This document shows positions 26,801-32,255 of a stretch of DNA of 37,808 nucleotides, in pieces. The stretch is from the NCBI GenBank assembly GCA_945861965.1, contig CAMAWM010000021.1, positions 1 through 37,808 on the forward strand, in the 5' to 3' direction. This DNA is from Chitinophaga pinensis. Its GTDB lineage: Bacteria > Bacteroidota > Bacteroidia > UKL13-3. Both the position numbers and the translations under genes were made by a program. The notes beneath the pieces were generated by a model, which worked only from the letters and a program-made list of their open reading frames with translations, was not told the DNA's origin and did not search any database. How positions within the stretch are numbered: position 1 is the stretch's first letter; every line of letters begins with the position of its first letter.

Positions 26801-27103
26801 ATGAACGATATTACAACTGACGAATTAAAAAAACGCATGGATGAAGGCGAGAAATTAAACATTTACGATGTTCGTGAGCAGTACGAATACGAAGAGTTTA
26901 ACATTGGTGCTGTACTTATTCCATTGGGCGATTTGCCTTCGCGATTGGCAGAGCTGGAGCATCTAAAAAACGAAGAGATAATACTTCATTGCCGTTCAGG
27001 CAAAAGAAGTGGCCAAGCCAAAATGTTTATGCTTGAATATGGTTTTGCAAATGTTCGAAATCTTATTGGTGGAATGGTAGATTGGCAAGAAAAATTCTCC
27101 TAG
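26801..27103 (+). CDS. Single-domain rhodanese-like protein
   Basis: 100 residues covering one rhodanese domain: NIYDVREQYEYEEFNIGAV, then the active-site loop HCRSGKRS with the catalytic Cys in the CxxGxR form, and GGMVDWQ near the end. Such proteins carry sulfur as a persulfide. No signal peptide, so cytoplasmic. It starts 18 nt after the T9SS gene and 24 nt before the cytochrome gene, which suggests a shared transcript, though a functional link with either is not evident. Confidence 0.9.
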   Translation: MNDITTDELKKRMDEGEKLNIYDVREQYEYEEFNIGAVLIPLGDLPSRLAELEHLKNEEIILHCRSGKRSGQAKMFMLEYGFANVRNLIGGMVDWQEKFS

Positions 27104-27127
27104 AAATTTGATTTAATAAAATGGTTT

Positions 27128-29104
27128 ATGAAAAAGTCCCTGACATTATTTTTGGTTTTATGTGTCGTTGCTTTTTTTAATTACTTCTGCAATTTACAGT
27201 CAAATTCCGATGCCAATAAAAGTGAATATTTAAATCACAATGACACGGTAAAGTATGTTGGAATGCAACAATGCCGTTCATGTCATGAAGATAAATATAA
27301 AACATTTATCGAAACGGGCATGGGAAAATCTTTTGACATTGCATCAAAAAGCAAATCGTCTGCTGATTTTTCAACCCATCAAATTGTGTACGATAAATTT
27401 CGCGATTTTTATTATGCGCCAATATTAAAAAACGATTCCTTGTATGTTTTCGAATTTCGTTTGTTTGGTAAAGACACAATTTATAAACGCTTTGAAAAAG
27501 TTGATTTTATAATTGGTTCTGGACAACATACCAACTCGCATTTTACAAATGTTAACGGATATTTATTTCAATTGCCTTTAACTTGGTACGCACAAAAAAA
27601 GCGTTGGGATTTGCCACCTGGTTATGAAAACAATCACAACGTTAGATTTAATAGAAGTATCGAATTTGAGTGCATGAGTTGTCATAATGCAATGCCAACA
27701 GTTGCCGATTTTACATCAAATAAATTCATGCAAGTTCCAAATGGAATTGATTGCGAAAGATGCCATGGTCCTGGCGAATTGCATGTAAAAGAAAAGTTGG
27801 CGGGCAATAAAGTAGATACAGCAAACGAAATAGATTATACCATTGTAAACCCGCGAAAATTAAGTTGGGAAAGACAGATTGATGTTTGTCAACGATGCCA
27901 TTTGCAAGGCAATGCGGTATTGAAAGATGGAAAATCCTTTAATGATTTTCGTCCTGGAATGAAACTGAGTGATTATTGGGAAGTTTACATGCCAAAACAA
28001 AAAGATTCGGAGGATGAATTTATTATGGCAAGCCATGCTCAGCGTTTGCAAATGAGCAAATGTTTTATTGAATCAAATAAAAAGGAAAATACGAACTCGA
28101 ATAAATTTGCAACATTCAATTTAACTTGTGTAAGCTGTCATAATCCACATATAAGTGTGAAATTGACAAGCAATCAAGTTTTCAATAATGCATGTATGAA
28201 ATGCCATGACAACAAAAATATTCAATCGTGTAATGAAAAGTCAGTTGTCAAATTAATTAGTAAATCATCAGAGAAAAAAAATATTGAAAATGTAAACTGT
28301 GTTAATTGTCATATGCCAAAATCAGGAACAATTGATATTCCACACGTAACGGTACACGATCATTGGATTCGTAAAAATAGTAATAAGCATAAAATGGATA
28401 ATGCTAAAGAATTTATCGCTTTGTATTGCATTAATAATTCAAATATAAATGAGATTTCAAAAGCAAAAGCATACCTCAGTTATTATGAAAAATTTGAACA
28501 AAAAAATGAATTGCTTGATAGTGCAGATTTGTTTTTAACTTTAAATAAAAAAAATGGGAGTCTTAATTTTGACACAAGAATTCATTTAGCATTTTTGAAA
28601 AATAAATTTGAAAATATAATTGAATTCGTAAAAAATAATAATAAAACTGAAATTAATAACGCGTGGACTTCTTATCGTATTGGTCAATCTTTTCAGTATG
28701 CAAGCAAGTTTATTGAAGCAGAATTGTATTACAAAAATGCAATTCGAATTTCGCCAGAAAGTTATTTGTTTTACGACAAACTTGCTTCGGTTTTGATACA
28801 ACAGGGTAGGATAGAAGATGCCATTTTGCAATTGAATATATCATTACAAAAAAATCCAAAACAAGAAAGTGCGTTAACTAATTTGGGATATGCTTTTATG
28901 TTAAAATCGGATACGAAAAATGCGAAAAAATATTACGAAATGGCTTTGAGTTTAAATCCAGACCACGAACAAGCATTATTAAATATGGTTGGATTGTTTA
29001 TTTATTTAAACGATACAAAATCAGCCAAAATTTATTTATTAAAAGTTAGAAAACGAAATGATTTAAACAATGAGGCAATGAATGCAATAAAACTCTTGCA
29101 ATAA
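27128..29104 (+). CDS. Exported seven-haem c-type cytochrome with TPR domain
   Basis: 658 residues. A hydrophobic N-terminal segment (3-20) precedes Cys21 in NYFC, a poor lipobox, so it is either an ordinary signal sequence or a lipoprotein. Seven CxxCH haem-binding motifs start at C49, C182, C209, C254, C334, C356 and C391. The spacing is wide, as in multihaem proteins of the cytochrome c554/nitrite-reductase-like class. Residues from about 510 to the end are TPR repeats (YYKNAIRISPES, AILQLNISLQKNP, YYEMALSLNPDH), a protein-binding scaffold. Likely periplasmic electron transfer within a complex; no partner oxidoreductase is visible here. Confidence 0.88.
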   Translation: MKKSLTLFLVLCVVAFFNYFCNLQSNSDANKSEYLNHNDTVKYVGMQQCRSCHEDKYKTFIETGMGKSFDIASKSKSSADFSTHQIVYDKFRDFYYAPILKNDSLYVFEFRLFGKDTIYKRFEKVDFIIGSGQHTNSHFTNVNGYLFQLPLTWYAQKKRWDLPPGYENNHNVRFNRSIEFECMSCHNAMPTVADFTSNKFMQVPNGIDCERCHGPGELHVKEKLAGNKVDTANEIDYTIVNPRKLSWERQIDVCQRCHLQGNAVLKDGKSFNDFRPGMKLSDYWEVYMPKQKDSEDEFIMASHAQRLQMSKCFIESNKKENTNSNKFATFNLTCVSCHNPHISVKLTSNQVFNNACMKCHDNKNIQSCNEKSVVKLISKSSEKKNIENVNCVNCHMPKSGTIDIPHVTVHDHWIRKNSNKHKMDNAKEFIALYCINNSNINEISKAKAYLSYYEKFEQKNELLDSADLFLTLNKKNGSLNFDTRIHLAFLKNKFENIIEFVKNNNKTEINNAWTSYRIGQSFQYASKFIEAELYYKNAIRISPESYLFYDKLASVLIQQGRIEDAILQLNISLQKNPKQESALTNLGYAFMLKSDTKNAKKYYEMALSLNPDHEQALLNMVGLFIYLNDTKSAKIYLLKVRKRNDLNNEAMNAIKLLQ

Positions 29105-29184: not shown

Positions 29185-29577
29185 TTAATTATCTTTTTTA
29201 TCCTTAATTAGTTTTAATAATTCATTTTGAAATGCACTTGTTTGAGTGATTTGTCTCTCAATTAACTGAAATATTTTGTTTTGATTTTTAATTAATTCTT
29301 CTCCAATATTTTGATTTTGTTGATTATTTATAATGTTACTATTTGAATTATCATTGAATGTTTTTAAGTAATTTATTTTATTGTCAAATTGCTCAACAGA
29401 TTCTCTTGATATATTAAGTATATGTAAAATCTTATCTACTCGTTCTTCTGTAAGTTTTGTTTCATTTCTTTCTAGGCGTGAGTATGTAGATTCATCCATT
29501 TCTAGCCTAGATGCCATATCCTTTATAGGAATATGCTTTAATTGTCTAATTGTTCTGATTTTATTGCCTGTAATCAT
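29185..29577 (-). CDS. XRE-family transcriptional regulator with helical tail
   Basis: 130 residues. The N-terminal 57 residues are a lambda-repressor-like helix-turn-helix: IRTIRQLKHIPIKDMASRLEMDESTYSRLERNE, with the recognition helix near MDESTYSRLE. The rest is Asn/Gln-rich (NSNSNIINNQQNQNIGEE) followed by an amphipathic helix that could dimerise (KIFQLIERQITQTSAFQNEL). It is divergent from the small secreted protein at 29682. A perfect palindrome directly abuts its start codon, so it probably represses itself and may control the divergent genes. Targets are not shown by sequence alone. Confidence 0.85.
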   Translation of the reverse strand: MITGNKIRTIRQLKHIPIKDMASRLEMDESTYSRLERNETKLTEERVDKILHILNISRESVEQFDNKINYLKTFNDNSNSNIINNQQNQNIGEELIKNQNKIFQLIERQITQTSAFQNELLKLIKDKKDN

Positions 29578-29596
29578 AACTTTAAAAATTAAAGTT
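29578..29596. promoter_or_regulatory. Palindromic operator candidate at the XRE start
   Basis: AACTTTAA and TTAAAGTT form a perfect 8-bp inverted repeat with a 3-nt AAA centre, ending exactly at the base before the XRE start codon. On the minus strand a partial -7 box, ATAATTTG (29598-29605), lies just upstream, so the palindrome covers the expected transcription start. That is where an autorepressor would bind. Confidence 0.55.
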
Positions 29597-29681
29597 GCAA
29601 ATTATGCATAAAAAAGTTTAAAAATGCTTTGAAAAATATAATTGATGTAATAATATTTGAATTCCTAATTAATTAAACACA

Positions 29682-29993
29682 ATGAAAGAATTATTAAAGT
29701 TGAAAACAATACAAGTGTGGGTTGTATTAAGCATTTGTTTAATTCAGGCAAATCAAGTTTATTCTCGGGTTACCTTTCACTATGGCACTGCTGTAATTAC
29801 ATGGGTACATACTTCTGATGGTAGATTAACTGGTACATTACGTTGCCCAGGTACTGGTTATTGTTATGCAAATTATGGTGACAGGATGTGGATTTATGGT
29901 TATCAAATTTGGGTAACGGCTAGTCCAGTATTACCTGATGACCCAGATACTCCAGAAAATGAGGAGGTAATTGACATAACGGTAATTGAATGA
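29682..29993 (+). CDS. Small secreted two-cysteine protein of unknown function
   Basis: 103 residues. Residues 1-28 are a signal peptide (MKELLKLKTIQVWVVLSICL, cleavage likely after QVYS). The mature part, about 75 residues, is rich in Tyr, Trp and Gly and has just two cysteines, C55 and C61, in RCPGTGYCYANYG. These could form a disulfide loop. The C-terminus is acidic (DDPDTPENEEVID). I do not recognise the family. It resembles in plan the small exported Cys-containing peptides that Bacteroidota often encode beside propeller or thioredoxin-like proteins, but no conserved leader such as NVEALA is visible. The next gene, 86 nt downstream, encodes an exported CxxC protein. Confidence 0.6.
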   Translation: MKELLKLKTIQVWVVLSICLIQANQVYSRVTFHYGTAVITWVHTSDGRLTGTLRCPGTGYCYANYGDRMWIYGYQIWVTASPVLPDDPDTPENEEVIDITVIE

Positions 29994-30041
29994 ACCTACT
30001 TTTAAAAGATTATTTTTAATTGCAAACTGCCCTAATAATAT

Positions 30042-30067
30042 CTTACAACGCTTAATTTTATTGTAAG
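30042..30067 (+). promoter_or_regulatory. Inverted repeat before the exported CxxC protein gene
   Basis: CTTACAA (30042-30048) and TTGTAAG (30061-30067) are perfect reverse complements with a 12-nt spacer. The right arm runs into AGACTTTG (30069-30076), a partial -7 box that ends 3 nt before the ATG at 30080. It could be an operator or a weak hairpin between the two genes. Confidence 0.4.
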
Positions 30068-30079
30068 AAGACTTTGAAT

Positions 30080-31534
30080 ATGAGAAAAATAATATTTTTA
30101 CTATTAACTTTATTTAGTTGCCTGCAAGCCATTGGCAATGATTTGGGTTATAAAATCTATGTGCGGCTAACTTTAAACGACTGCATAACGTGTTACCAAA
30201 AATTTCAGTATTTGGATAAATACAATAAAGATTTGTTTTTGGTTTTAGAAACAAAATATAAATTAAGACATGAAGAATTAATTAATGAAATCTTAAGATA
30301 TTGTTTACCTGACAATAAATTTATATACTCAGATTCCTTATTTAATATTTTAGATAGTAATACATTATCCACAGTTCATTTGTATAAAAACAAAACAGAG
30401 ATATTTAAATGTTATCTAAAAGATATTAACAAACTAATAAATAAATTAGAGAAATATATGTCTGTTAATAACGATACAATATTTTTCAATACACCACTAC
30501 CATATGATTTTGATTTCACCTTTTCGCCTAATAAAATTTATTTACAAGATAAAAAATTCAATTCTATAACAATTGTTCCTAGAGATGGTAAATCAAATTC
30601 AACAACAATAAAACCTTTAAATAGGCTGCCAAATATTATTATCAATAAATTTAATCGTGGAGATACAACTAAATTTCACAAAATCAATGAATATTATCGT
30701 AGTAGAAACTTAAAAATGCCAAATAGGTTTGAATCATTTTTTGTGGATAACAATGATACACTATTTGTAACTACTTACACAGAACAGTTTGAGCTATTCA
30801 AAAGTGGGCCTATGATGATTGATACTGGATTGTATCCTGTTATTGGTCTTGTAAAAATATATAATGGGCAATTTGTATCTATTGAGCCTATAATAATTTC
30901 TTTATTGAAAGATAATTATTTCATTAATCATTTTTGTTTTTATTACTCTAATGAGTTTAAGTTATTTTCATTAGGTAAAAGTGCAACAGGCTTTAATACT
31001 CCGACTCCCCAATATAATAAAAATGAAAAATACGTTTTTTTAACTACAGTTATAGACTCCAATGGTTACATATATAGAAAAAAAATATTGCCCTTTGAGT
31101 TATCCGATATTTATAAAAGAAATAAATTAGGTACAAATAATTACGCATCATTTGTTATCTCATATCCTTATTTAATGACTCAACTTAGCAGTACATTGTA
31201 TATTTTAAATGAAAATAAGATTGTACGACTTGATTTAGATACAGGTAATTCAACTTTCAATAATATTTATGAATTTGGTGCTAAAATTGAATTTGTGATT
31301 GTTGATATTCATAAAAGCAAAAATCTATTGAAAGTTATGTATTTTAAAAAAGATAAGTATTTTCAAGCTACTTTTGGGATTCCAAGATATAATAAATTAA
31401 GTGACGAGGCTATTTTTCCTGAATTTCTTAAAGATCATGATGAAATAAAACTTTCACCTAAGTTTGATGCTGATTCACATGTGTTATTCTTTCCAAAAAA
31501 ATGCAATTGTATAGTTAGAAAAGCGCTAAACTAA
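30080..31534 (+). CDS. Exported protein with N-terminal CxxC, possible thioredoxin-like plus propeller-like domains
   Basis: 484 residues from the ATG at 30080; a TTG two codons earlier sits inside the -7-like box and is rejected. The signal peptide covers about 1-19. Just after it, YVRLTLNDCITCYQKF carries a CxxC (C35, C38) at the end of a beta strand, the position of the redox site in thioredoxin folds; about residues 22-125 could be such a domain. The rest is strand-rich with recurring segments (KIYLQDKKFNSITIV, TLYILNENKIVRLDLDTGN), like beta-propeller blades. Near the C-terminus there is a CNC. I do not recognise the family. Probably cotranscribed with the two-cysteine protein upstream. 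Confidence 0.6.
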   Translation: MRKIIFLLLTLFSCLQAIGNDLGYKIYVRLTLNDCITCYQKFQYLDKYNKDLFLVLETKYKLRHEELINEILRYCLPDNKFIYSDSLFNILDSNTLSTVHLYKNKTEIFKCYLKDINKLINKLEKYMSVNNDTIFFNTPLPYDFDFTFSPNKIYLQDKKFNSITIVPRDGKSNSTTIKPLNRLPNIIINKFNRGDTTKFHKINEYYRSRNLKMPNRFESFFVDNNDTLFVTTYTEQFELFKSGPMMIDTGLYPVIGLVKIYNGQFVSIEPIIISLLKDNYFINHFCFYYSNEFKLFSLGKSATGFNTPTPQYNKNEKYVFLTTVIDSNGYIYRKKILPFELSDIYKRNKLGTNNYASFVISYPYLMTQLSSTLYILNENKIVRLDLDTGNSTFNNIYEFGAKIEFVIVDIHKSKNLLKVMYFKKDKYFQATFGIPRYNKLSDEAIFPEFLKDHDEIKLSPKFDADSHVLFFPKKCNCIVRKALN

Positions 31535-31574: not shown

Positions 31575-32255
31575 CTATAACTTCTCACCCAAATTTGGTC
31601 TCCGTTTTTTTGTGCGCTCAATACTTTTTTCTAATTTCCATTCGTCAATTTTTTTTTCGTGTCCGCTTAATAAAATCTCTGGCACTTTCCAAGTTTTGTA
31701 TTCGGCTGGTCTTGTATAAACCGGAGGACTAATTAAATCGTCTTGAAACGAATCGCTCAATGCAGATGTTTCATCATTTAATACTCCTGGAATTAATCTG
31801 GCAATAGTATCAACTAGCACAACTGCTGCTGGCTCACCTCCAGAAAGCACATAATTGCCAATTGAAATTTCGGCACTGATTAAGTATTCTCTAACTCGCT
31901 CATCAATTCCTTTGTAATGGCCACATAATACTATCAGATTTTTTTTAAGTGATAAAGTATTTGCCATGTTTTGATTTAATAATTTACCATCTGGGCAAAG
32001 AAAAATTATTTCATCATACTCTCTTTCCAACTTTAATTTACTTATACAAAGATCAATTGGCTCAATCATCATCACCATTCCCGCACCTCCGCCAAAGGCA
32101 TAATCATCTGCATTTTTATGTTTCCCTTGTGCGTAATCGCGCACATTGTGCAAGTGTATTTCTAGTATATTTTTTTCTTGAGCTCTTTTTAATATTGAAT
32201 GCTCAAATGGGCTTTTGAGCAATTCGGGATGTAAGGTTAAAATATCAATTCTCAT
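31575..32255 (-). CDS. trmD: tRNA (guanine-N1)-methyltransferase TrmD
   Basis: Methylates G37 of tRNAs that read CNN codons, preventing frameshifting. The 226 residues show the SPOUT trefoil-knot motifs: [13 protein letters not shown] and [13 protein letters not shown], plus the N-terminal [11 protein letters not shown] and [13 protein letters not shown]. The C-terminal domain with [26 protein letters not shown] is complete. It is separated from rpsP-rimM and on the opposite strand. Its leader of about 28 nt begins after a minus-strand -7 box at 32284-32291. Confidence 0.97.

Follow-up and report, generated by a model that had tools for sequence, protein, structure and literature searches.

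Do a divergent regulator and two exported proteins, lying together between unrelated genes, represent an undescribed functional module, and, if so, what might the exported proteins do to each other? The question is raised by a locus in a 37,808-nucleotide stretch of DNA (the window), drawn from a Chitinophaga pinensis genome (G000) of 2.1 Mb in 61 contigs with a completeness of 96%. The initial annotation had proposed that an XRE-type repressor gene and the genes for a 103-aa and a 484-aa exported protein possibly form a three-gene module unrelated to its flanks; all three ORFs lie at the positions it had given, between unrelated flanking genes.

On the minus strand, positions 29185..29577 code for the 130-aa XRE-type regulator, in which an N-terminal HTH_3 domain (E=8e-10; 39.1 bits against a curated cut-off of 23) is followed by a C-terminal helical tail. 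Diverging from it on the plus strand are the gene for the small exported protein (29682..29993), with a signal peptide at about residues 1-28 and the cysteines C55 and C61, and that for the large exported protein (30080..31534, from an ATG at 30080), which combines a signal peptide, a predicted thioredoxin-like domain and a predicted all-beta propeller-like domain at about residues 133-482. The upstream flank (26801-29104) comprises genes for a single-domain rhodanese and then a TPR-containing multihaem c-type cytochrome, and the downstream flank is a convergent gene read as trmD (31575-32255); neither is related to the exported pair. Both exported proteins were without a match in Pfam, NCBIfam, PADLOC and PHROGs, the PADLOC search for a defence role returning generic HTH matches only. 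An Rfam search of the region found no RNA, and its count of promoter-like sites was not above that of shuffled sequence.

A recurrent pair of exported genes

A single-sequence search with the large protein across 64 genomes of the window's family recovered one convincing full-length relative, in G042 with 25% identity, besides a truncated one in G039; an independent search with the small protein led to a G042 gene that immediately precedes this large relative in the same orientation. A three-row profile added G014, G029, G055 and G063 and revealed that the window's own genome has a second copy. Wider profiles extended the family to G007, G096 (two copies), G130, G137 (two, later three), G175 and G200 in a sample of the class, and to G787, G805, G812, G856, G868, G880, G894, G901, G936, G988, G992 and G1007 in the family of G137. 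These iterated profile searches place relatives of the large protein in six families of the class with a patchy distribution: 7 of 64 genomes in the window's family, 11 of 395 in the class sample and 13 of 246 in the G137 family. A last scan, run with three Edaphocola-type sequences, assigned two of the G137/G894 loci to Edaphocola flava and E. aurantiacus (Chitinophagaceae), each species having three copies. A scan of genome contigs with the window's large protein as a single sequence gave no match, and the 8-row alignment offered no segment of sufficient conservation for scanning. Plasmid and phage sequences, queried by tblastn with the large protein, contained no match. Among the early weak matches of the family search (L005-L012), those that were read proved to be MurD-like (L007, L008, L011), MutS-like (L006) or glycosyltransferase-like (L005) and were set aside.

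Of the 30 large genes, 26 (19 genomes, six families) have immediately upstream, in the same orientation, a gene for a small exported protein carrying two or more cysteines. Applied to other genes of these loci, the same rule, which asks for such a small exported ORF in the same orientation and no more than 160 bp upstream, gives 3 of 181. The denominator of 30 comprises the full large genes with intact upstream DNA. Applied mechanically, the rule yields 24 of 32 large genes, the 32 including the propeller-only copy of L033 and the partial gene of L034, both of which are left out of the 30. Two further pairs were added by hand, one with an ATT start (L031) and one with an in-frame TGA (L032), and two of the 24, L055 and the second pair of L096, had been moved by hand from the other-gene set. 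The arrangement has its variants: four complete large genes (L089, L091, L071, L098) have no small gene beside them and retain the CxxC motif, L054 and L059 have two small genes each, and L096 has two complete small-large pairs in tandem. In L033 (7049-8197; G063), a tandem relative devoid of the thioredoxin-like domain lies directly downstream of a complete pair. The similarity matrices of the partners correlate (Pearson 0.71, with 0 of 5000 permutations; 0.30 among divergent pairs), a figure that includes shared ancestry.

That some large genes stand alone could be taken to mean that the two genes are neighbours by descent or chance, with no functional link; the contrast of 26 of 30 with 3 of 181, across six families and differing surrounding genes, renders this extremely improbable. 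Separate occurrence of the homologues, the outcome that the initial annotation had named as speaking against a module, is thus not what is seen. Given the repeated adjacency of the genes, and cysteine pairs that stay invariant where little else does, the association exceeds chance, and the two exported genes make up a genuine, undescribed module to which a regulator is an optional addition.

The proposed third member fared differently. Unlike the exported pair, the XRE gene occurs at few loci: a divergent copy adjoins the pair in the window, in L054 (G130) and in L096 (G880) only, the window's protein being 30-32% identical to the first and 21% to the second. It is an optional part of the module, because it is absent at the remaining loci; where present, it probably represses the pair. 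Abutting its start codon in the window is a perfect inverted repeat, AACTTTAA-AAA-TTAAAGTT (29578..29596, unstranded), a weak operator candidate that has a single match in the window with up to two mismatches, 0.31 being expected in shuffled sequence; L054 has a direct repeat, GTAATAATTTAT twice, at the same place. Other regulators near the loci are a histidine kinase with a response regulator (L029, L030, L059) and single response regulators (L035, L053).

Several additional features of the loci may be recorded here. The small gene of the second pair in the window's genome (L032 7550-7837; G000:C6) carries an in-frame TGA at codon 46, ahead of the cysteine pair, beyond which the frame runs on as LWCSGDGTCAEV..., which points to a disrupted gene or to a fault in the assembly. 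Downstream of the pair in G042 and G039 (L029 5923-7584 and L030 3347-5008) lies a gene for a protein of 553 aa that has a CarboxypepD_reg-like domain and is nearly identical in the two genomes. In G029 (L035 5885-6436), a gene approximately 1.5 kb upstream of the large gene encodes an exported protein of 183 aa in which cysteines are densely clustered (SCPCPKCKCSGCPCALGMCACG) and for which Pfam has no match, and in G936 (L098 6156-7340) the partnerless large gene is followed by two genes for exported EGF-like cysteine-rich lipoproteins.

Predicted folds and invariant cysteines

The CxxC motif of the large protein, C35-I-T-C38, lies directly behind the signal peptide. Its two cysteines are the only invariant residues in an alignment of 14 large proteins, and in one of 26, which display about 14-23% identity to the window's protein, only the start methionine joins them. 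An AF2 model built on an 8-row alignment (mean pLDDT 70) predicts for residues 24-127 (30149..30460, plus strand) strands and helices in the order expected of the thioredoxin fold, namely a strand at 24-29, helix at 36-51, strand at 52-56 and helix at 58-74, and then strands at 98-103 and 106-112 and a helix at 113-127, with C35 placed after the first strand and immediately before the helix at 36-51. The initial annotation had suggested looking for a thioredoxin fold at residues 20-125 and had counted the lack of a redox fold, together with a buried or non-conserved CxxC, against its proposal; the model contains a predicted thioredoxin-like domain over 24-127, and the motif is retained in 26 of 26 proteins. 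Curated thioredoxin models gave no significant match to the family, the best being Thioredoxin_9 with E=0.03 in one of 14 proteins.

This domain is unusual in one respect. Thioredoxin folds frequently, even if not universally, possess a cis-proline before strand 3. At the aligned position, 97, the 26 large proteins have serine in 18, threonine in 4, alanine in 2, asparagine in 1 and proline in 1, such that the residue is Ser/Thr in 22 of 26 and the proline is replaced in 25 of 26; the window's protein has Ser97. The replacement could signify metal binding instead of redox catalysis, with the CxxC, in a domain that has Ser/Thr in place of the cis-proline, binding the metal and the cysteine pair of the small protein serving as donor or acceptor. 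Besides the near-general loss of the proline, such a role would accord with the multihaem cytochrome gene that precedes the pair in the window; however, this neighbor is not kept at other loci, and neither alignment has a conserved His or Met beside the cysteines, which makes metal handling very unlikely in our estimate.

The remainder of the large protein is modelled as all-beta, with about six strand groups and several segments below pLDDT 50. Foldseek with the large protein returns beta-propellers at low TM-scores (0.2-0.34 by query length). From this model of moderate confidence, the C-terminal part appears to be propeller-like.

In the small protein of the window, the mature chain is approximately 75 aa long, and a third cysteine, C19, falls inside the signal peptide. 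The single pair C55/C61 noted earlier is indeed present and coincides with the only invariant columns in alignments of 14 and later 24 small proteins, in all of which the spacing is C-x5-7-C. The pair lies 16-27 residues into the mature chain, except in L035, where the lead is longer, and the small proteins of the window and G042 have CPGxGxCY...IYG in common. The mature small proteins are putative beta proteins of about 70-100 aa; for that of the window, AF2 predicts a compact beta fold (pLDDT 88-91 over mature residues 1-50) with the cysteines, C27 and C33 in mature numbering, at both ends of a hairpin loop. A fold search against the PDB found no relative of the small protein (best E 0.6).

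An entirely different relationship between the two proteins might also be envisaged, wherein the small protein serves as a signal, secreted or at the surface, whose disulfide is purely structural; it would be bound by the propeller-like protein, with the thioredoxin-like domain having a structural or sensing role. Both partners diverge fast, as ligand and receptor might, and regulators occur near several loci (XRE, histidine kinase/response regulator), at a frequency that may not exceed background. Yet the CxxC is invariant, no other part of the large protein is as well conserved, and this would be hard to explain without thiol chemistry; hence, we regard this alternative as unlikely.

A putative thiol-disulfide system and its nearest counterparts

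We therefore lean slightly towards the large protein being a dedicated thiol-disulfide handler and the small protein its client. Both would be exported by the Sec pathway to the cell envelope, where the propeller-like domain would hold the small protein and the CxxC-bearing thioredoxin-like domain would exchange disulfides with its cysteine pair, by making, isomerising or reducing them, such that the small protein would mature or be switched. The handler may be atypical, holding its client rather than turning over fast, given that the usual cis-proline is replaced by Ser/Thr. The window's genome encodes a full-length DsbD, a possible source of electrons for thioredoxin-like proteins of the envelope; a search of the same genome for VKOR found none. 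More tentatively, with the balance of probability somewhat against it, we propose a class-wide Bacteroidota envelope system in which a thioredoxin-propeller protein lacking the cis-proline, as a dedicated partner, loads, holds or switches the single disulfide of a small, fast-evolving secreted protein, of signaling or competitive function, under XRE repression where that regulator is present.

The envelope disulfide chemistry of Bacteroidota is poorly charted. If confirmed, the proposal would provide these bacteria with a dedicated redox handler and its client, and would also furnish a thioredoxin-like family that gave up the normally well-kept cis-proline. The two protein families have no entry in the curated libraries searched and are linked to each other by adjacency and by their invariant cysteine pairs; they co-occur in six families of the class, culturable Edaphocola species among them.

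Among known proteins, NHLRC2 and SOQ1 resemble the predicted plan of the large protein: in both, a thioredoxin-like domain bearing a CxxC-type motif forms the N-terminal part, and a six-bladed NHL propeller stands where the large protein has its putative propeller-like domain. In NHLRC2, the motif lies in a cleft beside the binding face of the propeller, and bacterial homologues of NHLRC2 are without conserved neighbours (PMC6107167). The differences are considerable: the motif is CCINC in those proteins as opposed to CxxC here, NHLRC2 has the cis-proline where the window's protein has S97, and the large protein, unlike NHLRC2 and SOQ1, is exported and tied to a small gene. Compared by profile, the large family matches SOQ1 (7djj) weakly and below significance (E=0.16), and Pfam detects no NHL repeats in it.

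A likeness of another kind is to the bacteroidetocin loci, where a thiol oxidoreductase is encoded beside the peptide (PMC6671954). Both are Bacteroidota systems that combine a small, cysteine-containing exported product with a dedicated adjoining thiol oxidoreductase, the latter being proposed in our case. This precedent, together with the sporadic distribution (13 of 246 genomes in one family and 11 of 395 in the class sample), fast divergence and tandem copies of the pair, raises the possibility of antagonism, with the small protein acting as a bacteriocin-like toxin for which the large protein provides maturation or immunity. Bacteroidetocins, however, are 42-aa peptides with a double-glycine leader, four cysteines in A and B, an ABC peptidase-transporter and a TM protein (PMC6671954), whereas the pair described here has a Sec signal peptide rather than a GG leader, a larger mature beta protein of about 70-100 aa, a single constant cysteine pair and a propeller-like fusion. 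At the loci read, no transporter, and hence no ABC peptidase-transporter, was found beside the pair and no double-glycine leader was seen, and PADLOC and PHROGs were without a match. We accordingly consider antagonism distinctly unlikely and retain the handler-client reading.

NVEALA loci, too, consist of a small exported cysteine-containing product adjoining a propeller-like protein. The initial annotation had claimed a likeness to Bacteroidota peptide/propeller loci in plan and not in sequence, and this holds, given the all-beta propeller-like prediction, a row of genes in G666 described below and the lack of any NVEALA match. Membership in NVEALA itself (PF14055) was rejected, since 14 small proteins gave no match at E 1, nor did the genome at E 0.01; the large family further differs from these loci in its own fused thioredoxin-like domain.

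The G666 row, from another class of the phylum (L067 3134-5107), codes successively for an exported peptide of 66 aa with CPGVFGSC at its C-terminal end, a lipoprotein of 374 aa and a thioredoxin-like lipoprotein of 151 aa. The last scores above the Pfam AhpC-TSA cut-off and weakly to ResA, and in profile comparison it aligns with the N-terminus of the large family (E=2.2e-6, prob 89), thereby relating the latter to the TlpA/ResA-type proteins of the AhpC-TSA clan. The large family differs from these in lacking a significant thioredoxin-model match and the cis-proline, and in its fusion to a propeller-like domain. The G666 peptide has no match to the small-protein profile, and an early reading of the 374-aa lipoprotein as a six-bladed propeller was dropped as propeller evidence, no library or profile comparison supporting it. 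The G666 row is possibly a split form of the module.
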